Assembly: GCF_002277025.1 (NCBI RefSeq)
Contig: NZ_NIWD01000006.1
Coordinates: 62,001 to 126,000 of the forward strand
Length of the DNA stretch: 64,000 nucleotides
Source: Sphingopyxis sp. GW247-27LB
GTDB lineage: Bacteria > Pseudomonadota > Alphaproteobacteria > Sphingomonadales > Sphingomonadaceae
Direction of reading: 5' to 3'
The position numbers and the translations under genes were made by a program. Positions 3,936-57,343 of the stretch are shown here, piece by piece (the stretch's first letter is position 1; the number at the start of each line of letters is the position of its first letter). The notes below the pieces were generated by a model, which worked only from the letters and a program-made list of their open reading frames with translations, was not told where the DNA came from and searched no databases.

Positions 3936-4702
3936 CGATCATTCTCCCCGGTTGATTGAGCGCGGAGGGCGGCGTCGATCGCATCGAGCGCGGATTGCGA
4001 CATGCCGATCCAGTCAGCGTCGCGGTGCTCCTTTGCGTCGTTCAGGTCGGCCTCAATGATGCCGCGCGCGATCGATAATCCGTCGACCGCCTCCCGCAGC
4101 CGCTCGGTCTGTGACTGGTCGGTGGTGAGGGCGGCGAGAGGCGTTGCGACATACCGATTGCGTCGAGGATCAGCGGTGATGTCGTAAACCGACGAACAGC
4201 GAGCAGTGCGGGTTTGAAACACGCCCTTGTCTCCCGGCGTCCACCCTTCCGCTTTGTAGATCGCTGCGATGAGGTCGTCGGCGACCGCTCGTTCAATGAC
4301 GCGGCGCTGCACCGCCCCGCCTTGCTCGATAGCTGCACCGGATGCAGAAGCGCGGTCGGCCGCGTAAAATGCAGGCATTAGAGCCGGGATTGCGTCGATG
4401 ATCTCGTCAACCTTGTTGGCGGCCGCTTCAATCGCGGAGATACCAGCACCCGTGCGCAATGCTTCATCGTGCTCGATGCGCAGCCGGGTCAGTTTGGAAA
4501 TTTCACCAAACAGAGCCGCCATTTCGACGGACATGTGCTTACCCGCCCCACTCTCCCGCTCGGCATTGCCTGATTGCGAGAGGCGGTGGCGGAACCGGTC
4601 GCACATTATATCGAACACTTCCTGCGCAGTGCGGCTTTCGATGCCGATGATCGGGCGCAAAATGTCAGCCTGCGTCGGCTTTAGCTGGCTATCGGGGGTC
4701 AT
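3932..4702 (-). CDS. Unknown helical element protein
   Basis: This is a 256-aa protein, mostly helical. The first 30 residues contain ADILRPIIGIESRTAQEVFD. An N-terminal helical region is followed by YKAEGWTPGDKGVFQTR and a C-terminal helix. The last codons (TGENDR) double as the ribosome-binding site of the next gene. Related proteins occur in alphaproteobacterial prophages as small early products, but no function is known to me. Confidence 0.6.
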   Translation of the reverse strand: MTPDSQLKPTQADILRPIIGIESRTAQEVFDIMCDRFRHRLSQSGNAERESGAGKHMSVEMAALFGEISKLTRLRIEHDEALRTGAGISAIEAAANKVDEIIDAIPALMPAFYAADRASASGAAIEQGGAVQRRVIERAVADDLIAAIYKAEGWTPGDKGVFQTRTARCSSVYDITADPRRNRYVATPLAALTTDQSQTERLREAVDGLSIARGIIEADLNDAKEHRDADWIGMSQSALDAIDAALRAQSTGENDR

Positions 4703-5520
4703 ATCCGTTCCCCATCGATATCAACTTCAACGAGCGGTACCGCGACTTCCTTGTGGCAAATTTTCTCGGGGTACTGCCCGCCGAAGTGGACGGCGAAATT
4801 CTCGTCGAGCCGCACGCGACATTCGAGATAATGTCGCGGATTGCTGACGAATTGATGCGTGTGACGTGGCGTCGGTGAGAAATTCAGCCCGCCGCCAACG
4901 CTGCATTCTTCCTTTCTGCCGTTCCACTGATGGTCGATCGGCGTCGAACCAGGCTCGTAGGTCGTGCCCCATTTGGAACGATACCCCTCGCCGACCGCCT
5001 TGTAGACGATCGCGCAGCCATCTTCGACGCGGACACCGTAGAAGTCGCACCAGTCTTGTGGCGTTTCGAGTTTGATCTGAAACTGCAGACCACCTTCGAT
5101 TTTCGCATTTCCCTGAACACGAATGATGACGTTCGCTGCGGCCTTGCCGGTGAGACGGTCGCCGCGGGTGAACACATAGGAGAACCCGTTAGCATCCAAG
5201 CACGGCGCGCTGGTCCCCCTCGTCACGATGCGGGGCGCGCTGGTCTCCCACGTCTCGATGCACGGCGCGCTGGTCTCCCACGTCTCGATGCACGGCGCGC
5301 TGGTCCCCCTCGTCACGATGCGGGGCGCGCTGGTCCCCCTCGTCACGATGCACCCTTGCACGTCGGTGGTCGAGATTTCGACGTCCGCCGCCACTTGGAT
5401 GTCCACACCCGTCAGGCTCACCAGAGCGAGAGCGAACGAACCGCCCACAATCCGAACCGGCTTACCAGCCTTGATCGCCTTTTCGGCAGCGGTTTTCGTT
5501 TTGACTTCAACGCGTTCCAT
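4699..5520 (-). CDS. Repeat-containing element protein (possible short beta-helix)
   Basis: The start at 5520 (MERVEVKTKTAAEKA) shares one base with the stop of the upstream gene (TAATG), giving 273 aa. After an N-terminal beta-rich stretch, residues about 56-105 form five consecutive 10-residue repeats of the form (I)(V/E)T(R/W)(G/E)TSAP(R/C). A 10-residue beta period suits a small right-handed helix, like pentapeptide proteins; that is inference. The C-terminal 150 residues are rich in aromatic, His and Cys residues and seem globular. The repeat tract could change length by slippage. Confidence 0.65.
   Translation of the reverse strand: MERVEVKTKTAAEKAIKAGKPVRIVGGSFALALVSLTGVDIQVAADVEISTTDVQGCIVTRGTSAPRIVTRGTSAPCIETWETSAPCIETWETSAPRIVTRGTSAPCLDANGFSYVFTRGDRLTGKAAANVIIRVQGNAKIEGGLQFQIKLETPQDWCDFYGVRVEDGCAIVYKAVGEGYRSKWGTTYEPGSTPIDHQWNGRKEECSVGGGLNFSPTPRHTHQFVSNPRHYLECRVRLDENFAVHFGGQYPEKICHKEVAVPLVEVDIDGERI
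5204..5353 (-). repeat. Five in-frame 30-bp tandem repeats, two variants (A-B-B-A-A)
   Basis: Units begin at 5204, 5234, 5264, 5294 and 5324 with GGCGCGCTGGTC. Variant A continues CCCCTCGTCACGATGC and variant B continues TCCCACGTCTCGATGC (plus-strand reading). Each unit codes 10 residues on the minus strand, so gain or loss of a unit keeps frame. The identity between copies is high, which suggests recent amplification or conversion. Confidence 0.9.
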
Positions 5521-5951: not shown

Positions 5952-6049
5952 TCACTTTTGACGTGATATTTCCCCGAGAAATATTTGTCAACTGAAACGT
6001 GTCATAACACGTTTCGCTTGCATCGTGCAAAGAATCACCTTATACGTGA
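5952..6049. promoter_or_regulatory. Operator cluster between divergent units
   Basis: TCACTTTTGACGTGA (5952-5966) and TCACCTTATACGTGA (6035-6049) are strong matches to the element-wide dyad. TCAACTGAAACGTGT (5988-6002) is a weaker one. The first lies seven bases before the minus-strand start at 5945. The third overlaps a possible plus-strand -10 (TATACG at 6041) with TTGCAT 17 bases upstream. This arrangement would let one repressor silence both directions. Confidence 0.65.
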
Positions 6050-7932: not shown

Positions 7933-7947
7933 ACTCGTTTCACGTGA
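7933..7947. promoter_or_regulatory. Imperfect operator dyad
   Basis: ACTCGTTTCACGTGA keeps the right half-site CACGTGA of the element-wide motif. It lies 13 bases upstream of the start at 7920, where it would cover the promoter or early transcribed region. Confidence 0.45.
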
Positions 7948-8144: not shown

Positions 8145-8159
8145 TCCCGTTTCGCGTGA
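8145..8159. promoter_or_regulatory. Operator-like dyad
   Basis: TCCCGTTTCGCGTGA matches the right half of the common motif and part of the left. It lies nine bases before the start at 8136 and just after the stop of the 8161-8883 gene. Confidence 0.45.
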
Positions 8160-8902: not shown

Positions 8903-8953
8903 TCACGTCTAACGTGAGTTTATCTTAAACCTAATAACTCACGTTTCAAGTGT
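8903..8953. promoter_or_regulatory. Two operator dyads upstream of the 8161-8883 gene
   Basis: TCACGTCTAACGTGA (8903-8917) is a strong match. TCACGTTTCAAGTGT (8939-8953) is weaker. They are spaced 36 bases start to start, and the intervening sequence is AT-rich, as a promoter would be. Confidence 0.6.
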
Positions 8954-8957
8954 TATT

Positions 8958-9161
8958 TCACCCTATCAGTGACTCTATCAGCCATGAATCCATCCCGATC
9001 GCCTCGCGCGGCAGCGATCCGCCATTGACGCAACGCGCGCACGCGCCTGTTGACACGTATCGGACGCCATCGGCATGACCATGGCGGCAACTGGCGCCGG
9101 TGTAATATTTCAGGCGGGCACGGCGTGCCTGGTCGCGTGCGGGGGATTTGGGGCGGGCCAT
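8958..9161 (-). CDS. Zinc-knuckle protein of the CRHGH type
   Basis: The start at 9161 (MARPKSPARDQARRARLKYY) shares one base with the upstream stop (TAATG), giving 67 aa. It holds TGASCRHGH and STGACARCV, the Cys-x-x-Gly-His ... Cys-x-x-Cys pattern often seen next to HNH nuclease or phage DNA-binding domains, here standing alone. The N-terminus is strongly basic. Nucleic-acid binding is likely; a nuclease centre is not visible. Confidence 0.65.
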   Translation of the reverse strand: MARPKSPARDQARRARLKYYTGASCRHGHADGVRYVSTGACARCVNGGSLPREAIGMDSWLIESLIG

Positions 9162-11016: not shown

Positions 11017-11073
11017 TCACTTTTGACGTGATTTACCTTAGGACCGCCGCGTGAATAGTCAACTCTCGCGTGA
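11017..11073. promoter_or_regulatory. Operator dyads before the 10,981 block
   Basis: TCACTTTTGACGTGA at 11017-11031 is identical to the copy at 5952. TCAACTCTCGCGTGA at 11059-11073 is a partial match. They lie 36-92 bases upstream of the start at 10981. Confidence 0.65.
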
Positions 11074-11228
11074 GTTTTTTTGGGAGTAAATCTTAGGACG
11101 CGTCGACCATGGTGCGGCGCCAGCTGGCGCCGCTGCAGGCGACGGCGCTTCATCCGTCATTCTAAGTTTTACATGGGCGGGAACGTGAGGGGCGGCGTGC
11201 CTGGCCGCTTCGGGTGACGTGTTGTGGT

Positions 11229-11283
11229 GATACAGTTTAGCTTAAATCAGGTGTATTAGTTGCACGATACAGTTTAGCTTAAA
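11229..11283 (+). repeat. Two exact 18-bp direct repeats
   Basis: GATACAGTTTAGCTTAAA occurs at 11229-11246 and 11266-11283, 37 bases apart. Related cores TTTAAGCTAAA (inverted) recur at 11447 and 11570, and a degenerate one near 11645. Confidence 0.8.
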
Positions 11284-11524
11284 ATAACGCAGTTGTATGA
11301 CAACTTTGTTTTAACTTAGACACGCGACTCGTGACATATCGGCTCTAAGGTTAACTCATTTGTCAAGTAAAATCAGCACCTTGGGTCCCTCTCAGCGAGT
11401 GCCGGCAGGGCGAGTGGCGCTGAGCCCCGGTTTCGGACAGTTTTCATTTAAGCTAAATAGGCTTAGAGTTTACCTTAGGAACGGACGACATGGCTCATAA
11501 GTCGTTGATATTGCATCGGAAAAA

Positions 11525-11875
11525 TCTTGTTCCAGATCTTGTTCCGTTATTTCCGTTTGATTTCAGTAATTTAAGCTAAACTGGAACAAGGGCCTAATTC
11601 TTGTTCCACGTTCTTGTTCCAAATTTTTTGCGGTTTTTCAGCCATTTGAGCTAGGTGGAACAAGAATCAGCCATTTTTCCCTAGAAACTATCCTTGGGGG
11701 TAAATGGAGCGATCAATGGTAGGTATCGACGAAGCACGAGACAGAAAAAACGTTCTGCGAGACGACAAGTCTTTAGGAAAAACGGCCTGTTCCAGTTCCA
11801 CTTGGCGCAACACGTTGAAACTACTTCGAAATTCTGGAACAAGAAGGTGGAACAAGAATTTTCGATCTTGTTCCA
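11525..11875. repeat. Iteron-like TGGAACAAGA / TCTTGTTCCA array
   Basis: About nine copies, in both orientations, begin near 11525, 11537, 11582, 11598, 11611, 11656, 11835, 11848 and 11866, plus a partial one (CTGTTCCA) near 11788. Several are paired head-to-head. The density, one copy per 40 bases, is typical of initiator or partition-protein binding arrays. Confidence 0.7.
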
Positions 11876-12082
11876 GTTCCACCCTGAATTTGCTACTAAG
11901 TTTTATTCGGAGCCCGAAATTAGCGCCGCGGCGTTCTAAGGTTTATTCGCCGATGATCGCGCACCTAGTTGAGCGTCATCTAAGATTTATCCACCGAGAC
12001 ACGTCGCGCCGTTTCTAAGTTTTATTCCGCGGTGCGGTCGATGGTCGCTCGGGATCACGATGCGCTTGAGTGCGTCGCGCTA

Positions 12083-12129
12083 TCACGCGAGACGTGTTGA
12101 CTCCAATTGCATACTCACGTATCAGGTGA
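12083..12129. promoter_or_regulatory. Operator dyads before the rightward block
   Basis: TCACGCGAGACGTGT (12083-12097) and TCACGTATCAGGTGA (12115-12129) are spaced 32 bases and end 28 bases before the start at 12157. They would control the plus-strand block 12157-13968. Confidence 0.55.
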
Positions 12130-14047: not shown

Positions 14048-16588
14048 CTACCCGATCAACATATCCGCCATCATTTGCACCGCGCCCATGCGTCGATAAG
14101 TGCGCTGCTTCCCGTGCAGTTTGAAGCGGAACTGCTCATCGGATTTCTCCCATCCGGGGATGCGATTCATGCAGCGCCCGACCATCGCAGCCTTGGCAGC
14201 ATCATACTGCTCCTGACGCCCGCCAAGACAGTCGATCCATATCTCCCGCAGACACGTCACGTCACGCGGCTGACCGTTCTCAGCGTCGAACACCCCTTCC
14301 GCAGGTATCGACTTGTCGAGCCAATCGGCAATGATGCCAATGGTCGCATCGTCACTCGTCTCGACGCGCCGGCTTTCCTGCAGGTGCGACGCGATCGTGC
14401 GGGACATGGGGTCGGTGAGATATAGCGGCAGGATGCCGCGCGGCTGCTTCTCGCGCATCTGCCGGTACAGCGTGACCGCTTCGGCCCATATCTGGTCAAG
14501 GTTCGCCTCGAGCGCGCTGATGTCGATCTCGGAGACCGCACACATGACAGGCCAGAAGCGGCGCCCACCCGTGTCGTCCTTGAGATATTCGCGGTCATTG
14601 GTCGAACCGATGAAGATACACTGGCGAGGGTATTCCCCTGCCCGCCTCGCGTAAGCCAGGCGCACGCGATCTTTCTGCCTGCTGATGAATGCCTTGATCG
14701 AGCGCACGTCGCCGCGGTTGAAGCCCGACAGTTCAGGGATCTCCATGATCCACGCGCCCTGCATCAGTTCGACCATCTGCTTCTGGTCGTGGAAATCACC
14801 GTCGAGTTCGGCGAACCAGCTGCGGCCGAGCGTCTGGATGAAGGTCGATTTGCGCTTCCCCTGAAGACCCTCAATGATCACAGCGAAGTCGAACTTGTGG
14901 CCGGGCTCATAAATCCGGGTGACCGCGGCGATCAACATGAGGCGCGCTATGTCTCGATTATAGGCGTTGTCGGTCGTACCCAGATAGTCGATGAACAGTC
15001 GCTCTGCGCGCGGTACACCGTCCCACTCGACCGATTCCAGATATTCCTTGATCGGATGGAACGGGTTGTTGTCCGCGGCGAGGACAATGGAGGATTTCAG
15101 GTCGCGATCAGTGACCTTGGTTGAATAGCCGCCTTGCGTCTTCGGCGCCTCGATCACGGAACGGATCGCGAAGTCGCGGTCATCGCTCCACAGGTCGCCG
15201 TTGATGCCGTCGCGGACGGTCCACATGCGACCTTGAAGCTGTTTCACCGGTTTTGCGGCGCGGGCGCGCTGGAACATCTTACCTGGTTCGCGGCGCTGCA
15301 CCGTCTCATGGGTGAAATCGTTGAGTTGCGGCACGCCTTCGAAGCGCGGATCGTTCTTCAGGATGAGTTCGACGTTGTGGAGCGTCGAGCGCAGTCCCCC
15401 TTCCTCGTTGAAGTCGAGCAGCGAGATCCAGTCGAGGTTGCGCGGCTCGTCGTCATCAGCGCCGCCGTCAAGCGCCGCCAACGTCTCCTTGATATCGTCC
15501 TCGGTGACCGCGTCGTCGTCGGATTTGGCTTCGGGATCGGTGTCACCCGAGGCAAGGAACTCGTCGAGATCGCCAGATTCGTCATCCGCATCGTCGAAAG
15601 CCGTCGAAGGCTCGAGATCGTCCAGATCGGAACCGGCGAGCAGCATGTCGGTGATTTCGGACTTGCGCTGGTCGATGATCCACGCGCGAACCGACGCCAT
15701 CGTGACCGGCGCGCGGCGGTTCCGCCCGAAGCTGCGCCACTTGCGCGGCATTTCGCGTGCATCGAATTTTTCGCTGCGCTGACTGTGCTTGAGCCAGAGG
15801 TCGTAACCTTCCTGCGCGCCTCCGAATTGGTGGTGAAGCGCCTGACCGAGCGTCACCCAGTCGTGATAATCGTCGATCCTGGCATCGGAGAGCGCGTCCA
15901 GTTCATCTTCCAACTGACCGGGTTTATAGGAAAGGGGTTCGCGGGTCTCGAAGCCATAGGTTTCCTCGTGCGCGACGGTCAGTTTCTCGAGTCGCTCGGT
16001 GCTGATCGCAGGAGACACGCCGAGTTCGAGCATGTCGAGATCGAATGGACGTTTCCAGGTGTAGCGTTCGCCCGAGTCGGGGTGAATCGAAGGGGGCATC
16101 GCGACCTGTTTGTCGGTGCCGAAAATCTCGATTTCCCAGTCATAGTGCCACTTGCCGTTGGCGCTGCGATGTTTCCCCTCAGAGACGGCGATTTTGCGGC
16201 TGCGATAGGAGCGGGAGCAGGTGAAATACAGGTGGCGCGATGCACCTCCACTGCCCGACTTGACGCATGGCAGCGTGTCGAGCGCGACATCGGGGAATAG
16301 TTCGCGCAGCTTGTTCCATGCCTCTGTGGCGAGCTGGGGCACGCGAATGTCGACGTCGATGACATGGAGATACGTGCCGTCGACCAGGCGAGACGGCTCA
16401 CCGAGACGCACACCGACGTTCAGGTCGGGATTGTAGGTTTCGCGTAACCTGTCGAATGTTGGGGGATCGATGCTCGTCCAGCGGTTCTCGACAGGCTTTT
16501 TTGTGCGCGGTCGCAGCCAGTGGATCGCGAAACCCGCGGCGCGAAACGGCGCAATAGTCGTCAGAATATCTTGGCCGTCGTCAGCCAT
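14048..16588 (-). CDS. Primase-polymerase fused to VapE/D5-like helicase
   Basis: This 846-aa protein probably primes and unwinds DNA for element replication. Residues 10-200 form a Prim-Pol domain with the metal motif HVIDVD (Asp78, Asp80), then SGSGGASRHLYF and VAMPPSIHPDSGERYTW. An acidic linker lies at about 330-380. The C-terminal half is a VapE-type superfamily 3 helicase with Walker A EGLQGKRKST (Lys about 580), Walker B WIMEIPEL, sensor GSTN and the arginine motif GGRRFWPV. It is on the minus strand between plus-strand blocks, behind a small HTH gene. Confidence 0.88.
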   Translation of the reverse strand: MADDGQDILTTIAPFRAAGFAIHWLRPRTKKPVENRWTSIDPPTFDRLRETYNPDLNVGVRLGEPSRLVDGTYLHVIDVDIRVPQLATEAWNKLRELFPDVALDTLPCVKSGSGGASRHLYFTCSRSYRSRKIAVSEGKHRSANGKWHYDWEIEIFGTDKQVAMPPSIHPDSGERYTWKRPFDLDMLELGVSPAISTERLEKLTVAHEETYGFETREPLSYKPGQLEDELDALSDARIDDYHDWVTLGQALHHQFGGAQEGYDLWLKHSQRSEKFDAREMPRKWRSFGRNRRAPVTMASVRAWIIDQRKSEITDMLLAGSDLDDLEPSTAFDDADDESGDLDEFLASGDTDPEAKSDDDAVTEDDIKETLAALDGGADDDEPRNLDWISLLDFNEEGGLRSTLHNVELILKNDPRFEGVPQLNDFTHETVQRREPGKMFQRARAAKPVKQLQGRMWTVRDGINGDLWSDDRDFAIRSVIEAPKTQGGYSTKVTDRDLKSSIVLAADNNPFHPIKEYLESVEWDGVPRAERLFIDYLGTTDNAYNRDIARLMLIAAVTRIYEPGHKFDFAVIIEGLQGKRKSTFIQTLGRSWFAELDGDFHDQKQMVELMQGAWIMEIPELSGFNRGDVRSIKAFISRQKDRVRLAYARRAGEYPRQCIFIGSTNDREYLKDDTGGRRFWPVMCAVSEIDISALEANLDQIWAEAVTLYRQMREKQPRGILPLYLTDPMSRTIASHLQESRRVETSDDATIGIIADWLDKSIPAEGVFDAENGQPRDVTCLREIWIDCLGGRQEQYDAAKAAMVGRCMNRIPGWEKSDEQFRFKLHGKQRTYRRMGAVQMMADMLIG

Positions 16589-16615: not shown

Positions 16616-16915
16616 TTATTCGCAGAACTCGTAGAATCGTTCGAGCGCGGGAGGGGTGGCGGCGATTGCCTGAAGGGCCGCGATATTGGTCGGCGCGTTA
16701 CAGAGACGATGCAGCGTTCGCGCGTTCGTGGGCGTCACCACGCCTCGGCGCAGCCACTTGTAGATGCCTTCGGCGGTCAGGCCGACATCCTTGGCGATTC
16801 GAGGCACGTCCAGCAGGCCGCGTTTTGAGCGATATGTGGGGAAATTCTCGAAGAGAAAGCGATAAAAGGGCTGATCCCGCCATGGGTCGCGACCCTGTAT
16901 TTCGGTGCTGTGCAT
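16616..16915 (-). CDS. Small helix-turn-helix regulator
   Basis: This is a 99-aa product. Residues 33-60 (LDVPRIAKDVGLTAEGIYKW and LRRG) form a clear helix-turn-helix of the Cro/YdaS type. It is cotranscribed ahead of the primase-helicase, and its promoter shares an operator pair with the divergent plus-strand gene at 17074. A Cro-like switch or replication-control role is plausible but not shown. Confidence 0.7.
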   Translation of the reverse strand: MHSTEIQGRDPWRDQPFYRFLFENFPTYRSKRGLLDVPRIAKDVGLTAEGIYKWLRRGVVTPTNARTLHRLCNAPTNIAALQAIAATPPALERFYEFCE

Positions 16916-16966: not shown

Positions 16967-17000
16967 TCAACCGAGACGTGTTGTTTCACGTTTCAGTTGA
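16967..17000. promoter_or_regulatory. Operator pair in a divergent promoter region
   Basis: TCAACCGAGACGTGT (16967-16981) and TCACGTTTCAGTTGA (16986-17000) lie nearly adjacent between the HTH gene (start 16915) and the plus-strand gene (start 17074). One bound repressor pair could block both the primase unit and the recombination unit. Confidence 0.55.
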
Positions 17001-17657: not shown

Positions 17658-18857
17658 ATGCTAAGGGACTCCCTCCACGCCAAACTCGCGCCGTCCGCGG
17701 CAAACTTCTGGGCGAATTGTCCAGGGTGGGTTGAAGCGTGCGAGGGCATCCCGAACGACACCAATCGTTACGCCGCCGAGGGCACCGTCGCACACAAATA
17801 TCGCGACTTCTGCCTGAAAACCGGCACGTTTGCCGAGCAATTCATCGGCCAAACCGAGATTTACCAAGGGACGGAGTCGCGCTGGAACGGCGAATCGTTC
17901 GACGTCGCACCTGTCACCTACGAATTTACCTGGACCGAGGATGACGCGCGCTTGCTGCAATTCGGCATCGACGAGGTTCGCATCTTCGAGGGTGAATTCT
18001 TCGGGGAGTATCGCGTCGATATATCGAAGTGGCTTGGACCTGATCAGTTCGGCACGCTCGACGCGGCGATCGTCTCCGATGACCTGATCGTCATCAACGA
18101 CCACAAATGGGGTCGCTACATCCCGGTCTCGGCGGTGCAGAACAAGCAGATGATGCTGTATGCGCTCGGCTTCTGGTGGAACGTCGCGCGCAACGTGTCG
18201 TCCGCAAAGGATTTCCTGATCATCATTGATCAGCCGCGCTGCTACGGCGGTGGCGGTCGATGGCACGTCACCCTCGACGAGTTGCTGGCGTTCGGCGAGA
18301 CGATCGGCGCGCTTGCCGAAGCAGCCCTGACGCCGGGCGCTCCGCGTCGCGCCGGAACGCAATGCGGATATTGCCTGCGGCTTCAGCACTTCGGGTGCGA
18401 CGCGCACGACAATCTCATGAAGGATCTGACCATGGAAGCTGAACAGGTGCGCGAGATTGGTCGCGCCGTGACGCCCGAGCAGCGCAGCCGCCTGATCCTC
18501 CATAAAGGGATGATCGAAAAGTGGCTCGACGAACTCGCGAAGAATGCACTGGTCGATTATCTCGACGGGAAGCAGGTTCCGTTGCTGAAGGCCATCGAAG
18601 GTCGCGCGAACCCGCGAAAATATGTCGACGATGAGGCAGCGACAGTGCGTCTCACCGAAACGCTCGGCGACCGCGCCATGGCGCCGCCCAAAGTTCTCTC
18701 GCCGACGCAGCTGGAAAAGCTGATCGGCCCAACGCTCACGGACGCCGCATTCGGCGATCTGATCACCCGCAAACCTTCGACGCCGGTTCTCGTCCCGGTG
18801 GAGGATAGCCGCCCGGCAATACCCGTCGTGACGGCGATGTTCGACGATATCGAATAG
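17658..18857 (+). CDS. DUF2800 Cas4/RecB-like nuclease
   Basis: This 399-aa protein belongs to the phage DUF2800 family, part of the PD-(D/E)XK nucleases. Visible elements are GTVAHKYRDF (the His of motif I, about 43), GTLDAAIVSD with IVINDHKWG (Asp and Asp-x-Lys catalytic strands, about 135-152) and VQNKQMMLYALG (the Gln-x3-Tyr helix). CGYC plus later Cys may form an iron-sulfur or zinc site. It lies beside the ssDNA-binding gene, so a recombination exonuclease role in replication is likely. Confidence 0.8.
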   Translation: MLRDSLHAKLAPSAANFWANCPGWVEACEGIPNDTNRYAAEGTVAHKYRDFCLKTGTFAEQFIGQTEIYQGTESRWNGESFDVAPVTYEFTWTEDDARLLQFGIDEVRIFEGEFFGEYRVDISKWLGPDQFGTLDAAIVSDDLIVINDHKWGRYIPVSAVQNKQMMLYALGFWWNVARNVSSAKDFLIIIDQPRCYGGGGRWHVTLDELLAFGETIGALAEAALTPGAPRRAGTQCGYCLRLQHFGCDAHDNLMKDLTMEAEQVREIGRAVTPEQRSRLILHKGMIEKWLDELAKNALVDYLDGKQVPLLKAIEGRANPRKYVDDEAATVRLTETLGDRAMAPPKVLSPTQLEKLIGPTLTDAAFGDLITRKPSTPVLVPVEDSRPAIPVVTAMFDDIE

Positions 18858-19131: not shown

Positions 19132-19821
19132 ATGGCAGAACAATTGAACGTTCCCGACAAACGCGTTGTGAAAATGAATCGCGTCCGCCTGTCGTGGACC
19201 GACAGTCTCAAGACGAAGTCGCGACCGAAAGGCGTCGACGACGGCAAGGAAAAATATAACTGCAACATCATCATTCCGTCCGACCACCCCAAATTCAAAG
19301 AATATCTGCAGGCCTGCGTGGGCGCGATCGAGGAATCGGGCGCGCAGCAGTGGGGCAAGAAGGACGCATGGAAGACGATTCAGGAGGACAATCCCAAGCG
19401 CATCTGCCTGAAGAAGGGCGAGCGATTCAAGAACGAAGACGGTGAAATCTATGACGGCTACGAAGGCAATTACGCTTTCCCCGCCACAGGTCCGAAGGGT
19501 GGCGACGAACGTCCAAAACTGCTGGATCGCCACAAGCGCAACGTGGAAGAAGCCGATATTCTCGACGTGTTCTACAGCGGTAGTTACGCCGACGTGATCG
19601 TCTCGTTCTTCGGCACTGACAAGGGGGGTCGTGGCATCTTCTGTCAGGTCAACGGCATCCGCTCGCACCAGGAAGGCGACCGTCTCGCGGGCGGCGGTAT
19701 CACCGTCACCAACGACATGTTCGACGATCTCGAAGACGACAATGCGTTCGACGACGCGCCGGCCTCATGTGACGGTGAATCGTCATCGTCCAGCGGCGGC
19801 GACGATTTCGATATCGGCTGA
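19132..19821 (+). CDS. DUF2815 single-stranded DNA-binding protein
   Basis: This 229-aa protein (MAEQLNVPDKRVVKMNRVRL) follows the DUF2815 layout: an OB-like beta core with KYNCNIIIPSDHPKFKEYL, an insertion with RFKNEDGEIYDGYEG, and QVNGIRSHQEGDRLAGGG before an acidic, Ser-rich tail ending GGDDFDIG. Family members coat ssDNA in phage replication and recombination. A GGAG site lies upstream, and it follows the DUF2800 and Acb2-like genes. The acidic tip parallels bacterial SSB. Confidence 0.85.
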   Translation: MAEQLNVPDKRVVKMNRVRLSWTDSLKTKSRPKGVDDGKEKYNCNIIIPSDHPKFKEYLQACVGAIEESGAQQWGKKDAWKTIQEDNPKRICLKKGERFKNEDGEIYDGYEGNYAFPATGPKGGDERPKLLDRHKRNVEEADILDVFYSGSYADVIVSFFGTDKGGRGIFCQVNGIRSHQEGDRLAGGGITVTNDMFDDLEDDNAFDDAPASCDGESSSSSGGDDFDIG

Positions 19822-19829
19822 TCCGCGAA

Positions 19830-19844
19830 TCACGCGAAACGTGA
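19830..19844. promoter_or_regulatory. Operator dyad before the polymerase gene
   Basis: TCACGCGAAACGTGA is a good match to the element motif. It lies 56 bases upstream of the start at 19900 and nine bases after the DUF2815 stop. This suggests that the polymerase-helicase-nuclease block has its own repressible promoter. Confidence 0.55.
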
Positions 19845-19899: not shown

Positions 19900-21822
19900 A
19901 TGATCCGCGAGCAAATCGCCGTCGATATCGAGATCATGGGAAAATCCGGCCTATCACCGGAATTCCAACTCGGCTTCAAGCGCCGTCACGACGGCAAGGT
20001 CATCCAGTACCGCACCCGCACCCGTCTTACCGACGCCGAGATTGCTCGCATCCGCGCGATAATGACCGGCTACGAGATCGTGTCGTTCAACGGCAACAAT
20101 TTCGACATTCCGCTGATATTCCTCGCGCTGCAGGGCGCAACGGTCGACGAGATCAAGGAAGCGTCGAGCCGCATCATCAACGGCAAGCTGAAATATTGGG
20201 AGACGCCGCGCATCCTCGGGATCGACATTCCGCGGCTTAACCACATCGACCTGATCGAACCGCAACCGAACGCATGGGCAAGCCTCAAGATGCTCAATGG
20301 TCGCCTGCACGGACAGAAGATGCAGGATCTCCCCTATCACCACGACGCGGAGATCACCGACGAGCAGTTCGACGAGATCGCCGCCTATAACGTCAACGAC
20401 CTGGACGCGACGCTGCTGCTGCTCGACGCGCTCGAAGAACCGCTCAAGATGCGCGAGGCGATCGGCGCCGAATATGGCATGGATTTCCGGTCGAAGTCCG
20501 ACGCGCAGATCGGCGAGGCCATCATTCGCAAGCGATCCGAGGAAGCGCTTGGTCGACGCATCGAAAAGGTTGATCTGAATAAGGTCGCCGGCACCAAGTT
20601 CCGATATCAGCCGCCCGATTATCTGCAATTTGAGACGGAGCAACTGCGCGCCATTCTTGAGCGCATCCGCGAGACGGATTTCTTCATCAACTATCAGGGC
20701 AAGGTCAGCTTGCCGGATTGGTTGGGTGATGCCGACGTCATCATCGGCGATACGCGCTACCAGATGGGCATCGGCGGGCTACATTCCACCGAAAAGAATC
20801 GCTCCGTCTACGCCGACGACTACGCGAAGTTGTTCGATTTCGACGTTGCGTCCTACTATCCGGCGATCATCCTCGGATCGGGCCTCTTCCCACAGGCCAT
20901 CGGCCCCGTGTTCCTCGATATCTATCGGAAGATCCGCGAAGAGCGCATCATTGCGAAGCGCGAGGGTAATAAGGTCACCGACCAGGGGCTCAAGATTGCC
21001 CTGAACGGCACCTTCGGCAAGATGGGATCAGTCTGGTCCATCCTATACGCCCCGCACCTGATGATCGCCGTCACGCTCACCGGGCAGCTTGCCCTGCTGA
21101 TGCTGATCGAGCGCGCCGAACAGGTCGGAATCCCCGTCGTCAGCGCCAACACCGACGGCGTCGTATTCCGCTGCCCGCGGCACCTCGAGCGCGAGTTGTT
21201 CGAGTTGACGCGCCAATGGGAGAGCGATACCGGCTTCGAACTCGAGTCCACAGAGTATCTGTCGCTACACAGCCAGTCGGTGAACACCTACATCGCGATC
21301 AAGCCCGACGGCAAAGCGAAGCGGAAAGGCGTTCTCGCGAACCCGCGCGCCGAGGGTGACCTTCGCACGCAGATGATGAATTCCCCGTCGATGAACGTCT
21401 GTGCCGACGCGGCAGTCGCTCACATCCTGCACGGAACGCCCGTCGATCAGTTCATTCGCGAGTGCCGCGACGTGCGCGACTTCGTAACGGTGGTTCAGGC
21501 GAAGGGTGGCGCCACCTGGCGCGACGAGTATCTCGGCAAGGTCGTCCGTTTCACCTGGTCGACCGACGGCGACGACATTCTCTATTCCGAACCGCACCCA
21601 GAGACGGGCAACTTCAAGAAGGTGTCCCGCAGCGACGGTTCGCGACCGCTCATGGAACTGCCCGACGAGTTTCCCGACGACATCGACTATTCGGCCTATG
21701 TCCGCACCGCAAACGAAATCCTGCTCGACGTCGGCTACCTGAAACGTCCACCTGTCGCGCCGAAGGCCAAGGTATATAGCTACAACCGCAGGGGCTGGCT
21801 GATCGCGTCGATCGCGGCGTGA
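19900..21822 (+). CDS. Compact family-B-like DNA polymerase with 3'-5' exonuclease
   Basis: This 640-aa protein probably replicates the element. The N-terminus has exonuclease motifs: Asp9-Ile-Glu11, SFNGNNFDIPL and YNVNDLDAT. Polymerase motif A is FDVASYYP (Asp315), motif B is KIALNGTFG (Lys365, Asn369) and motif C is ANTDGV (Asn417, Asp419). Motif C is normally Asp-Thr-Asp; here the first Asp is Asn, as in some phage enzymes, while the main metal ligand remains. No terminal-protein-priming insert is obvious. In comparable phage modules this place is often held by a PolA-type enzyme. Confidence 0.82.
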   Translation: MIREQIAVDIEIMGKSGLSPEFQLGFKRRHDGKVIQYRTRTRLTDAEIARIRAIMTGYEIVSFNGNNFDIPLIFLALQGATVDEIKEASSRIINGKLKYWETPRILGIDIPRLNHIDLIEPQPNAWASLKMLNGRLHGQKMQDLPYHHDAEITDEQFDEIAAYNVNDLDATLLLLDALEEPLKMREAIGAEYGMDFRSKSDAQIGEAIIRKRSEEALGRRIEKVDLNKVAGTKFRYQPPDYLQFETEQLRAILERIRETDFFINYQGKVSLPDWLGDADVIIGDTRYQMGIGGLHSTEKNRSVYADDYAKLFDFDVASYYPAIILGSGLFPQAIGPVFLDIYRKIREERIIAKREGNKVTDQGLKIALNGTFGKMGSVWSILYAPHLMIAVTLTGQLALLMLIERAEQVGIPVVSANTDGVVFRCPRHLERELFELTRQWESDTGFELESTEYLSLHSQSVNTYIAIKPDGKAKRKGVLANPRAEGDLRTQMMNSPSMNVCADAAVAHILHGTPVDQFIRECRDVRDFVTVVQAKGGATWRDEYLGKVVRFTWSTDGDDILYSEPHPETGNFKKVSRSDGSRPLMELPDEFPDDIDYSAYVRTANEILLDVGYLKRPPVAPKAKVYSYNRRGWLIASIAA

Positions 21823-21837
21823 TGCGGTGATGATGTG

Positions 21838-23334
21838 ATGCACGTCGTCGAAGCGCGTCAATGGCTTGCGCTAAGCGTGGCCGACTCCTTCCTCGACAGC
21901 CCACCTGTTCCATTTTCGTCGTTCGATGTGTCGCCCGGCGCGCGCTGGTTCCAGTTGCTCATTATCGAAAAGCTGGAAAAGCTGATCGCTCTCGGGTTTA
22001 GGCGAATTCTGGTGGTGCTTCCGACAGGTGGGGGGAAGACCCGCCTCGCGATCGAACTGTTCAAATCGGCGCTGAAGCACGGTCACACCGCGCAATTCGT
22101 CGTGCATCGCAAGGAACTGACAGATCAGACGTCCGAAGCGTTCGTCGAACAGGATCTTCCGCACAGCTTCATCACGTCGACCGACCCTTATGACCCGTCC
22201 TTCGCCGCGACGATCGCCGGCGTTCAGACTCTCGTGTCGCGTCTGGCGCGTCTCGCCGCGCCGGATCTGGTCATCATTGATGAAGCGCATCACGCCGCCG
22301 CGGGATCATGGTCGAAGGTGATGACGGCGTACCGCGGCGCGGTGCAGATCGGTCTGACCGCAACACCGCAGCGCCTCGACGGCAAGGGTCTCGACGGCCA
22401 ATTCGACGCGATGATCATCGGCCCGACGGTCCAGCAGTTGATCGATGAAAAATTCCTGTCCCCCTATAGTTATTATGCGCCTGACATTCCCGACGTCTCG
22501 AAGATCCCGTCACTAGCGGGCGATTACAAGCGCGACAGTCTGCGCGAGCTCATGGACCGTCCACATCTCATCGGTGACATGGTCGAGCACTATGATCGCC
22601 TCGCGCGCGGCAAGACCGGCATCCTGTTCGCGACATCGATCGAGCATAGTCGGAACCTCGCGGCGGCGTTCAGTGCCGAAGGCTTCAGGACCGCCCACAT
22701 CGACGGAACGACGATGGACCGTCACGAGCGGCGCCGCATCATGGAGGATTTCAAGGCCGGATATTATCCGTTGCTGTCGGCAGTCGATCTGATCGGCGAA
22801 GGGCTCGACGTGCCGGGTGTCGTCTATATCGGCGGCGGTCGCCCGTCCAAATCACTCGTCTTCCACAAACAAAGCATCGGTCGCGCGCTGCGCATGTTCC
22901 CAGGGAAAGATGAAGCTGTCATCTGCGACCATGCGGGCAATTTTATGCACCACGGCGGGCCGACGTCTGAATATGACTGGTCGTTGCAAGGACGCGCTAC
23001 CGCAGCCGGCGCGCGCGGCCCGTCAGACGCGATACCGGTACGCCGCTGCCTGCAATGCTTTCAGGTCAGCTTCAGCCCGGCGAAAGTCTGCCCGTGCGGC
23101 GCAGAGTTTCCGGTGCAGAGTCGCGAGATCGAGACGCGCGAGGGGAAACTGACGAAGGTCGACGCCGCCGCGGCGAAGGAAGCGAAACGCAAGGCGCAGA
23201 TCGCCCGCGTCCTCGAAGAGAAGGAATGCACCCGCTGGTCCGACTTCGAGGCGCTTGCACGGAGGCGCGGTTACAAGAACCCCGGAGGATGGGCGCGCCT
23301 CAAGATGAGTCTCAAATCAGGAGCCGGTAAATGA
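21838..23334 (+). CDS. SF2 DEAD/DEAH-box helicase
   Basis: This is a 498-aa ATP-dependent helicase of the SSL2/type III restriction-like group (GTG at 21835 is an alternative start). Motifs visible: Walker A LPTGGGKT (about residue 65), DEAH box IIDEAHH, motif III GLTATP, and motif VI KQSIGRALRM. A C-terminal zinc finger with CLQC and CPCG is followed by a basic helix. It overlaps the VRR-NUC gene by four bases. It probably unwinds DNA for replication or recombination. Confidence 0.85.
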   Translation: MHVVEARQWLALSVADSFLDSPPVPFSSFDVSPGARWFQLLIIEKLEKLIALGFRRILVVLPTGGGKTRLAIELFKSALKHGHTAQFVVHRKELTDQTSEAFVEQDLPHSFITSTDPYDPSFAATIAGVQTLVSRLARLAAPDLVIIDEAHHAAAGSWSKVMTAYRGAVQIGLTATPQRLDGKGLDGQFDAMIIGPTVQQLIDEKFLSPYSYYAPDIPDVSKIPSLAGDYKRDSLRELMDRPHLIGDMVEHYDRLARGKTGILFATSIEHSRNLAAAFSAEGFRTAHIDGTTMDRHERRRIMEDFKAGYYPLLSAVDLIGEGLDVPGVVYIGGGRPSKSLVFHKQSIGRALRMFPGKDEAVICDHAGNFMHHGGPTSEYDWSLQGRATAAGARGPSDAIPVRRCLQCFQVSFSPAKVCPCGAEFPVQSREIETREGKLTKVDAAAAKEAKRKAQIARVLEEKECTRWSDFEALARRRGYKNPGGWARLKMSLKSGAGK

Positions 23335-23759
23335 GCGAATTCGACGATCTGATCGGAGTCCCATCCCCGCTGCCGCGCCGCAAGCAGTCCGAAAAGGCGA
23401 TCCAGAACGAAATTCTGGTCGCCGTGTCGCAGCAGCCCGGCGCGCTCGTCTGGCGCAACAACACGGGCCAGGCGTGGCAGGGTCAGCGCCTGCGTCTCCC
23501 GGTCGGGCAGAAGTTCGAAATGCTGCCCGGCATGGTGGTGCTTGCAGAAGCGCGACCCGTTGATTTCGGCTGTCCGGGTTCACCTGACATCATCGGCTCC
23601 GTAAAAGGTCGAGCGGTAGGAATTGAGGTCAAGGCGGACGGTGGTTACCAATCTCGTTTACAAAAGAGATTTGAAGCGGCCTGGAGCGGGACAGGCGCAT
23701 TGTATGGATGCGCCAAATCGGTCGCCGAGGCGTTAGGAATCATTGACAGATCACGCTAA
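23331..23759 (+). CDS. VRR-NUC domain nuclease
   Basis: This is a 142-aa protein. The catalytic pattern GSPDIIGSVKGRAVGIEVKA supplies Asp and Glu-x-Lys of a PD-(D/E)XK fold, and an N-terminal helix with QNEILVAVSQQ supplies the usual Glu. The QSRLQKRFEAAW helix completes the VRR-NUC domain. Single-domain phage VRR-NUC enzymes cleave DNA junctions. It ends the polymerase-helicase block; its last bases overlap the operator region of the repressor gene. Confidence 0.88.
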   Translation: MSEFDDLIGVPSPLPRRKQSEKAIQNEILVAVSQQPGALVWRNNTGQAWQGQRLRLPVGQKFEMLPGMVVLAEARPVDFGCPGSPDIIGSVKGRAVGIEVKADGGYQSRLQKRFEAAWSGTGALYGCAKSVAEALGIIDRSR

Positions 23760-23806
23760 AAGCATACATGTCACCCCTAACGTGAATACTCACCAGTTAG
23801 GAGTGA
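23751..23806. promoter_or_regulatory. Three-site operator before the repressor gene
   Basis: TCACGCTAAAAGCAT (23751-23765, half match), TCACCCCTAACGTGA (23771-23785, strong) and TCACCAGTTAGGAGTGA (23790-23806, spacing variant) lie 7-62 bases before the start at 23813. A triple operator at the repressor's own gene is the classical autoregulation layout. Confidence 0.65.
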
Positions 23807-23812
23807 TACTTT

Positions 23813-24511
23813 ATGAGGGCCAGGAACGCAAAGCTGCCTCGCGGCAAAGCGAAAAAGACACCTGTCCATCAGGGCTTCGCTGAGCGGTTGACCGCGGCTG
23901 CAGACAACAACCCGAACTTCCCTCCAATGCACCAAGGACGCTACGTCTATCTTGTTGAACAAATGGAGAAGTATGATGTCTCCATCACGATGGAGACCGC
24001 TCGGAAATGGTTCAAGGGTGAAACGATCCCTACACAGGAGAAAATGGTCTATCTGACCCGGATTATGAATGTCGATTTGAACTGGCTTTCAATGGGTGAA
24101 GTGGCCGCGAGCGAGGCCGCTGCCCGACGTCATCTCAAGGACGAAGCAGACTCCACGGTGAATATCGTATACGACTTGCTACTCGCAGCTGGTGCGAGGG
24201 CTCGCTTCGCTGACGGCGATGATGCGAAGAAGCACGGTGTCGATCTCCATGTCGTGATCAAGGGGGCCAGTTATAAGTTCTGCGTCGTGACGGGTGAGTA
24301 TGTCGATAAATCGTCGGCACGCTTCATGCAGCGCGAGGCCGGCGAAGACGTGATCACCCTCGGCGTCATTTCCGAGGATGACGATTTCCGGTTCAATATT
24401 TTCGATCTGTCACAAGCAACGATCGCAGCGGGAAGCGACGGTTGGAGCGCACCGATGGCGGTGTCTGATTTGGAAGAACGTCGCATTCGGTCGTTCGCAC
24501 AGCGAATCTGA
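23813..24511 (+). CDS. CI-like repressor, likely master regulator of the element
   Basis: This is a 232-aa protein. Residues about 20-95 form a Xre/CI-type DNA-binding domain: FAERLTAAADNNP, then the helix-turn-helix SITMETARKWFKGETIPTQE, then MNVDLNWLSMGE. The C-terminal part (about 110-232) is not a LexA-type peptidase: no Ser-Lys dyad is visible, so induction may not be by self-cleavage. It lies at the right end next to attR and carries three operator-like sites upstream. It probably binds the TCACNTNNNACGTGA sites throughout the element. Confidence 0.8.
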   Translation: MRARNAKLPRGKAKKTPVHQGFAERLTAAADNNPNFPPMHQGRYVYLVEQMEKYDVSITMETARKWFKGETIPTQEKMVYLTRIMNVDLNWLSMGEVAASEAAARRHLKDEADSTVNIVYDLLLAAGARARFADGDDAKKHGVDLHVVIKGASYKFCVVTGEYVDKSSARFMQREAGEDVITLGVISEDDDFRFNIFDLSQATIAAGSDGWSAPMAVSDLEERRIRSFAQRI

Positions 24512-24584: not shown

Positions 24585-24608
24585 GTTCGAGTCCCGCCGT
24601 CCGCACCA
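24585..24608 (+). other. attR: 3' end of a tRNA gene (element right boundary)
   Basis: GTTCGAGTCCCGCC, then GTCCGCACCA, gives a complete T-loop (TTCGAGT, 24586-24592), 3' T-stem, 7-base acceptor strand, discriminator A and CCA. The bases before it (GATTG) cannot pair with the T-stem, so this is only a fragment. Such a fragment is left when an element integrates into a plus-strand tRNA 3' end. The acceptor strand implies a tRNA starting GCGGACG, as in many tRNA-Leu genes. Gene density, GC and strand pattern all change here. Confidence 0.8.
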
Positions 24609-37440: not shown

Positions 37441-37473
37441 TTCGTCACCCCGGATCAAGTCCGGGGTGACGAA
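37441..37473. repeat. Short copy of the GTCACCCCGGA intergenic repeat
   Basis: GTCACCCCGGATCAAGTCCG then GGGTGAC folds back on itself. It is a half-length member of the family also at 48251-48326 and 61875-61949. Confidence 0.8.
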
Positions 37474-57308: not shown

Positions 57309-57343
57309 GGCCGCAGCTTACCTCAACTGCGAACGACCGCAAC

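Follow-up and report, generated by a model that had tools for sequence, protein, structure and literature searches.

A 65.1-kb prophage carries an array of 33 dispersed 15-bp dyads, and one repressor, encoded at 23813-24511, likely binds them and keeps the lytic and late structural blocks off in the lysogen; judged from sequence, this reading has a probability of about 0.8. The predicted operator has the consensus TCACGT-N3-ACGTGA in a 6-3-6 geometry, and the protein is most likely a master repressor that would work at least partly at promoters. The window denotes the whole 64,000-nt stretch analysed (C19:62001-126000); bare coordinates are positions in it, and those prefixed C19 refer to the contig.

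The prophage extends from C19:21478 to 86608 (65,131 bp), and its right portion occupies the first 24.6 kb of the window. Its right end is marked by attR (24585-24608), a 24-bp repeat of the 3′ end of tRNA-Leu(taa); the left att copy, outside the window at C19:21454-21477, is the 3′ end of the tRNA gene itself (C19:21391-21477). The first prophage gene encodes a phage integrase of the tyrosine type (Pfam). The transporter gene 3′ of attR sits ~1 kb from tRNA-Leu(taa) in both same-genus genomes searched, which fits insertion at that tRNA. In those two loci (L074 and L075) the tRNA-transporter gap is ~1 kb, compared with 33 bp from attR in the window, and the extra ~1 kb could be a further small insertion beside this tRNA. 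A 64,878-bp IMG/VR record encodes a repressor 100% identical to the one in the window.

Recognizable prophage genes include those for terminase, head-tail adaptor, capsid, major tail protein, holin, and endolysin. Within the window, the minus strand encodes a Prim-Pol/VapE primase-helicase (14048-16588) and a Cro-like protein (16616-16915), assigned by position and size with no PHROG match, which is a candidate for a second protein that binds the sites; in phage AH2, a gene annotated Cro occupies the same place. The plus strand encodes a DUF2800 protein classed as exonuclease by PHROG (17658-18857), an Enc34-type ssDNA-binding protein (19132-19821), a DNA polymerase of PHROG 1252 (19900-21822), and a helicase (21835-23334), after which come a resolvase-like gene (23331-23759) and the repressor gene. 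The records of phages with a repressor homologue assign them to Casjensviridae and share the order primase (minus), Cro-like (minus), nuclease/SSB/polymerase/helicase (plus), repressor, excisionase/integrase, and terminase; the prophage has this order permuted by integration. Between 17 and 30 reciprocal best hits connect it with each of six such phages. By gene content and order, the integrated phage is related to Casjensviridae. Gene starts throughout were called with a simple program, based on codon usage, that was written for the present analysis.

A first-pass annotation of the window had listed 16 dispersed dyads and three more before the repressor gene, had noticed none in the chromosome, and had proposed a matrix scan of both. 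That scan, which used a symmetric matrix of 21 columns trained on the prophage and a threshold of at least 12 bits, confirmed a dispersed array and enlarged it. It gave 33 sites in the prophage, 19 of them inside the window, against 0 in the 58.8 kb of chromosome that flank it; 60 shuffles of the prophage averaged 0.88 (maximum 3). An unsupervised dyad count puts the same dyad first in the element. The plain pattern TCACNTNNNACGTGA, with at most one mismatch, occurs at 20 distinct prophage sites and 22 times in the remaining 4.73 Mb of the assembly, a density ~66-fold higher in the prophage (hand count). At up to two mismatches the window contains 36 matches, compared with 11.7 expected, and 12 of the 36 lie on the chromosome side.

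Predicted operators in the window lie at 608-622 (24.7 bits), 648-662 (28.2), 5952-5966 (27.1), 5988-6002 (16.4), 6035-6049 (27.1), 8145-8159 (20.7), 8903-8917 (27.7), 8939-8953 (22.7), 11017-11031 (28.3), 11059-11073 (18.8), 12083-12097 (14.5), and 12115-12129 (24.1). A further pair lies where the Cro-like gene and the replication genes diverge (16967-16981, 16.3 bits; 16986-17000, 21.6 bits), and one dyad stands ahead of the DNA polymerase gene (19830-19844, 25.0 bits). Fifteen of the 16 dispersed sites noted previously thus pass 12 bits, and the sixteenth, at 7933-7947, falls below the threshold at 8.0. The scan added 6007-6021 (14.3 bits), 8958-8972 (12.7), and 11320-11334 (15.6) in the window, together with 14 sites to its left. 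The three dyads described before the repressor were reduced to one strong site, the predicted autoregulatory operator at 23771-23785 (20.0 bits), which lies close behind, on the 3′ side of, a promoter-like pair (TTGACA at 23743, TACATG at 23765); the dyad at 23792-23806 scores 6.5 bits, below threshold, and that at 23751 scores under 6.5.

To the left, outside the window, 14 sites (C19:22901 to 58643) precede the genes for excisionase, small terminase, head-tail adaptor, major tail protein, holin, and others, and also stand ahead of the gene after the major head protein and of a large late gene; nine of the 14 fall within structural and lysis genes or between them. The dyads at C19:35691 and C19:41516 are inside structural-run genes with no gene start nearby. 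As a side observation, a prophage gene matching PHROG 424 (phosphoadenosine phosphosulfate reductase; L002:15841-16569, C19:57841-58569) has a dyad 81 bp before its start. The whole array runs from C19:22901 to 85771 rather than in the two clusters of lambdoid operators, consistent with the single element-wide regulon first proposed. Twenty-eight of the 33 sites are intergenic, compared with 11.5% intergenic sequence in the prophage, and 30 lie 5-150 bp ahead of a called gene start. The suggestion that dyads precede nearly every transcription unit was too strong: among genes whose upstream gap is 25 bp or more, 17 of 47 have a site within 130 bp, and among those with a smaller gap 2 of 46 do.

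The putative master repressor (plus strand, 232 aa, PHROG 2967) combines an XRE/CI-type HTH (residues ~19-96) with a C-terminal domain (~103-232). HTH_3 was matched by 10 of 12 repressor homologues (Pfam, E up to 1), and no S24 peptidase family occurred among the 10 Pfam families listed for these 12 at the same cutoff. Two structure models predict a PD-(D/E)XK nuclease fold for the C-terminal domain, with I-Ssp6803I, Hjc, NhoI, and the SPARDA effector domain as fold neighbours. With no S24 family in the Pfam scans and another fold predicted, a LexA-type C-terminal domain was rejected, as the first-pass annotation had anticipated; its label CI-like holds for the N-terminal DNA-binding domain but not for the C-terminal one. 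In alignments of 34 and 12 sequences, D144 is the only invariant acidic or basic residue of the C-terminal domain, and the conserved lysine of a (D/E)xK motif, whose place was inferred from sequence rather than from a residue-level structure alignment, was not found. A single invariant acidic residue without a conserved lysine indicates that the domain is probably not a nuclease; its predicted nuclease fold has probably lost the ability to cut.

The paper on AH2 reports a 99.87% HHpred match to 186 CI (PMC3483164). In our comparisons, hhalign of the C-terminal domain against the single 186 CI sequence gave a probability of 0.1, and Foldseek with the L018 repressor model ranked a lambda-186 hybrid first (E 1.1e-4, rmsd 16.7). 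No tyrosine-recombinase fold appeared among the best 50 matches listed for either repressor model. A single-sequence search returned only the window's own protein, and a profile search returned 29 proteins including it. Among 149 genomes of the host's family, two match: the window's own and one weak match. Seventy-one phage records match at E up to 0.01, the weakest over the HTH only.

Related phages carry comparable arrays. In annotated relatives the repressor gene follows the helicase gene and mostly precedes excisionase, integrase, or terminase; the window differs by its resolvase-like gene between helicase and repressor. All seven elements of the training set, namely the prophage, RcCWillis, RHph_X2_30, AchV4, AH2, G150, and G149, contain 11-38 sites each: 28 6-3-6 sites in RcCWillis, 38 in RHph_X2_30, 30 in AchV4, 11 in AH2, 22 in G150, and 17 in the 33 of 66.5 kb scanned for G149, with shuffle means of 0.30-1.35 and an intergenic share from 8/11 up to 26/28 sites in these six relatives. 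Half-site spelling varies among them (TCACGT or TCACAT, TCAAC, ACAAC). Three class matrices (TCAC/TCAAC/ACAAC) were built from the training elements and applied to other phages, giving counts, in that order, of 22/0/0 in RcPescado, 7/0/0 in L036, 0/15/18 in SS2019XI, 2/14/10 in PS6, 2/8/3 in L069, 0/3/2 in L070, 0/1/8 in L018, 0/2/4 in L041, 6/11/2 in DSS3-P1, 2/5/2 in L013, 0/1/1 in L016, and 0/0/0 in L067. RcPescado, L036, SS2019XI, PS6, L018, and L069 are enriched over shuffle means of 0.8 or less; L016 and L067, both with a repressor, show no clear array; and the flanking chromosome gave 0/0/0. Seeded fits list 29 sites in RcPescado, 23 in SS2019XI, and 32 in PS6 without a shuffle control, and the class-matrix counts are preferred for this reason. 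In the unsupervised 6-3-6 count, the class dyad does not rank first in AH2, L041, or DSS3-P1, where other words do, nor in G149, where TCACGT is third; sites in these four were counted only via seeded or class matrices.

Sites are sparse where the repressor is missing. Phage Chi is virulent; in the 50 of its 59.4 kb scanned, the counts were 0/0/1 with none above chance, the repressor had no match, and the gene table of that stretch contains neither repressor nor integrase. Across 350 kb in 24 pieces from polymerase-bearing relatives, none with a match to the repressor, there are 2, 3, and 7 sites of the TCAC, TCAAC, and ACAAC classes. This corresponds to 0.06/0.09/0.20 per 10 kb versus 1.85-5.45 in 14 records with the repressor, which include the seven training elements, and the control pieces are fragments, so that a repressor may lie outside a piece. 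These 24 came from 34 loci, of which eight with a repressor (one being the prophage) and two with only a 39-residue polymerase match (L044 and L045) were left out.

The half-site class also follows the recognition helix. In most homologues this helix reads x-E-[T/S/A/G]-V-R-K-W, the variable residue being T62 in the window repressor. T or S pairs with C at half-site position 4 and A or G with A, as in all seven training elements. Among 12 non-training phages, nine agree, one is contrary (L013), and two lack a clear array (L016 and L067); among the nine, SS2019XI and PS6 agree for position 4 only, L070 has few sites, and DSS3-P1 has a diverged helix. L013 is the one clear exception, with T in its helix (ETV) and more TCAAC-class sites (2/5/2). 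For six phages the class was predicted beforehand, with four agreeing, one contrary, and one neither; their upstream sequences were already visible, so the prediction was not fully blind. Since residue class coincides with clade, the residue rule is a correlation. In 13 of 18 relatives, a class-matched dyad scoring 13 bits or more lies upstream of the repressor start or touches it; among them are AchV4, where the dyad touches the start codon and its score comes from the phage's own fit, and PS6, where it is 182 bp away; none of this strength lies upstream of the repressor start in AH2, L013, L016, L041, or L067.

Site placement is shared across relatives. For reciprocal best hits among the seven elements, restricted to genes whose gap is 25 bp or more in each of the two phages, 40 orthologue pairs have a site in both, 30 and 10 in one only, and 54 in neither (odds ratio 7.2, p 5e-7); the test pools all phage pairs except RcPescado/RcCWillis, and the pairs are dependent. 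A site precedes the orthologue of the head-tail adaptor in 5/5 cases, the excisionase in 3/3, the major tail protein in 4/6, and the repressor in 4/5, where AchV4 counts as missing because the gene caller picked a later start. Placement is not common to relatives at the polymerase (0/6) or the small terminase (1/5). Of 55 cases of neighbouring sites within 120 bp of each other (ten phages, hand count), 23 have a spacing of 18-20 bp and 10 a spacing of 36-42 bp, which suggests cooperative filling.

Some dyads coincide with promoter-like boxes. Two pairs in the window frame such boxes: TTGACA-N17-TATCAC on the minus strand, where the 5988 dyad overlaps the predicted -35 and the 5952 dyad the -10, and TTGACT-N17-TATCAG, where the -35 starts at the last base of the 12083 dyad and the 12115 dyad contains the -10 (12120-12125). 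Across phages, boxes overlapping the dyad run in gene direction at 34 of 146 sites versus 14 of 146 in reverse. At the same threshold, boxes wholly upstream (8 vs 7) or downstream (4 vs 6) show no bias; a looser threshold brings a bias upstream (41 vs 23). One promoter register common to all sites was looked for and not found, and the remaining sites may therefore act as roadblocks.

That most sites are true stoperators, obstructing elongating RNA polymerase at gene junctions instead of promoters, is a reading we take seriously but doubt. Several sites do sit at junctions of the structural run with no strong promoter in evidence, and the missing common register is in its favour; set against this, the sites are palindromic, with no orientation to transcription, and the dyad-overlapping boxes favour gene direction. 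The stoperator likeness drawn in the first-pass annotation stands functionally, and it does not extend to the palindromic form of the sites or to the subset on promoter-like boxes. Palindromes near start codons, with dyad centres a median of 42 bp away, could also be RNA or transcription-termination elements in leaders, with 6-bp stems and 3-base loops. This is very improbable. Arm pairing was observed 145 times against 148.6 expected from independent arms, paired positions equal or fall slightly under that expectation in each of the five phages examined, and pairs that deviate in one arm alone are frequent (49 of 198 in the prophage). Arms that vary independently point to protein half-sites rather than RNA stems; the primary sequence is moreover conserved and shifts with repressor class, and RNA hairpins are disfavoured by the lack of co-variation.

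A protein other than the repressor might be the chief binder. The Cro-like gene adjoins a dyad pair, a gene at its position is kept in the relatives examined, and late genes, which many phages activate, are preceded by sites, so the dyads could serve the Cro-like protein or another phage regulator, such as an early or late activator, with the repressor binding few of them. We consider this quite unlikely, because Chi keeps a small gene at the Cro position and lacks the sites, and because Cro-position proteins differ widely and their recognition helices, compared by eye, do not track half-site classes (EGI in the prophage and YTV in RcCWillis both fall in class TCAC), whereas the repressor helix tracks the class in 9 of 12 non-training phages. 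The Cro-like protein may still share the sites, and it, or both proteins, could bind the dyads.

Under repression by the 23813-24511 protein, a dimer would dock via the CI-type HTH on the predicted operator TCACGT-N3-ACGTGA. At a subset of sites, dyads overlapping -35 or -10 boxes would block RNA polymerase directly, and neighbouring dyads would be filled cooperatively. Dyads at late-gene junctions would silence local promoters or serve as roadblocks, so that leaky read-through would yield no virion or lysis proteins. The dyad ahead of the repressor's own gene would provide autoregulation, and the Cro-like protein may compete for the divergently placed sites 16967 and 16986. The C-terminal domain would more likely mediate dimerization or higher-order assembly than cutting, and since it is unlike the LexA type, release would not proceed by RecA-stimulated self-cleavage.

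Such control shares elements with several known systems. In the available account of B. subtilis SPbeta, MrpR is a master repressor acting on a 15-bp element, SPBRE, repeated at intergenic promoter regions, and it has an enzyme fold (tyrosine recombinase) that has lost activity (PMC10516654). The likeness extends, on that account, to one repressor (here predicted), a 15-bp element repeated across the prophage, and an inactivated enzyme fold; the differences lie in the HTH joined to a predicted PD-(D/E)XK domain, the host group, and the 33 predicted sites, which include late-gene junctions. Stoperators of cluster A mycobacteriophages (L5 and Bxb1) are described, in the text available, as asymmetric, mostly in one orientation, and mainly away from promoters (PMC6550527). 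They resemble the present array in being many and dispersed, in spelling that drifts with the repressor, and in a site before the repressor gene, whereas the prophage sites are palindromic and a subset lies over promoter-like boxes. With lambdoid CI the prophage shares an XRE/CI-type HTH, a Cro-like partner, and paired operators, and it differs in having 33 dispersed operators instead of two clusters, in the S24 domain, which was not found, and in the ~7 kb between its Cro-like and repressor genes. Unlike active PD-(D/E)XK nucleases, the domain lacks a conserved (D/E)xK catalytic motif.

Dispersed operators in temperate phages are also known for phage P1 C1 and the Streptomyces phiC31 repressor, the latter with inverted-repeat operators; these repressors and phages are not known to be related to those of the prophage. 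Dispersed-operator control is itself known, and the palindromic sites with a differently built repressor are most likely a new variant. A literature search joining Casjensviridae with repressor and operator found no paper, and the main texts searched on the RcD (PMC8601537), AH2 (PMC3483164), and AchV4 (PMC7996906) phages do not mention site arrays. According to the same sources, the RcD phages, which have a repressor homologue, gave apparent lysogens resistant to superinfection (PMC8601537), and no stable lysogens were obtained with AchV4, which carries repressor and sites (PMC7996906). Tentatively, and with more doubt than confidence, we propose that temperate Casjensviridae share an undescribed form of immunity, in which a CI-type HTH fused to an exapted, dead PD-(D/E)XK domain acts on up to ~38 palindromic operators per genome, late-gene junctions included, switches class mainly via one helix residue, and is perhaps released, instead of by RecA cleavage, by a DNA-structure or ligand signal that its nuclease-fold domain senses.

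Dispersed-operator silencing, documented in mycobacteriophages and SPbeta, would here operate in phages of Alpha-, Beta-, and Gammaproteobacteria. Because site arrays (some 20-40 sites) and repressors vary together in many phages, they form a natural series for specificity co-change, and the dyads could help predict which phages share immunity. Alongside SPbeta's inactivated recombinase, a nuclease-fold master repressor would be a second prophage switch built on a DNA-enzyme fold, and it prompts one to ask which signal releases it.

A second dyad, AGTCA-N5-TGACT, precedes early genes in RcD-type phages, at 57343, 58156, 60169, 63041, and 65813 in RcPescado (L005/L006); in RcCWillis (L008 and L046, 58137-64415 joined) five of its copies have a TCAC-class dyad 26-41 bp away. 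This second motif may belong to a different regulator, for example the small gene annotated immunity repressor. In the window, the mostly non-coding stretch 11160-12024 contains several repeat families (TTCTAAGTTTTA, CTTGTTCCA/TGGAACAAG, and GATACAGTTTAGCTTAAA) and is possibly an origin or a second regulatory array. A tandem array of 5.1 copies of a 30-bp unit, whose length keeps the reading frame, lies at 5200-5353 within a predicted minus-strand gene (4699-5520). On the chromosome side, inverted repeats of the form ACCCCG...CGGGGT occur in five copies within 39 kb, including those at 37455, 48253, 61877, and 61933.
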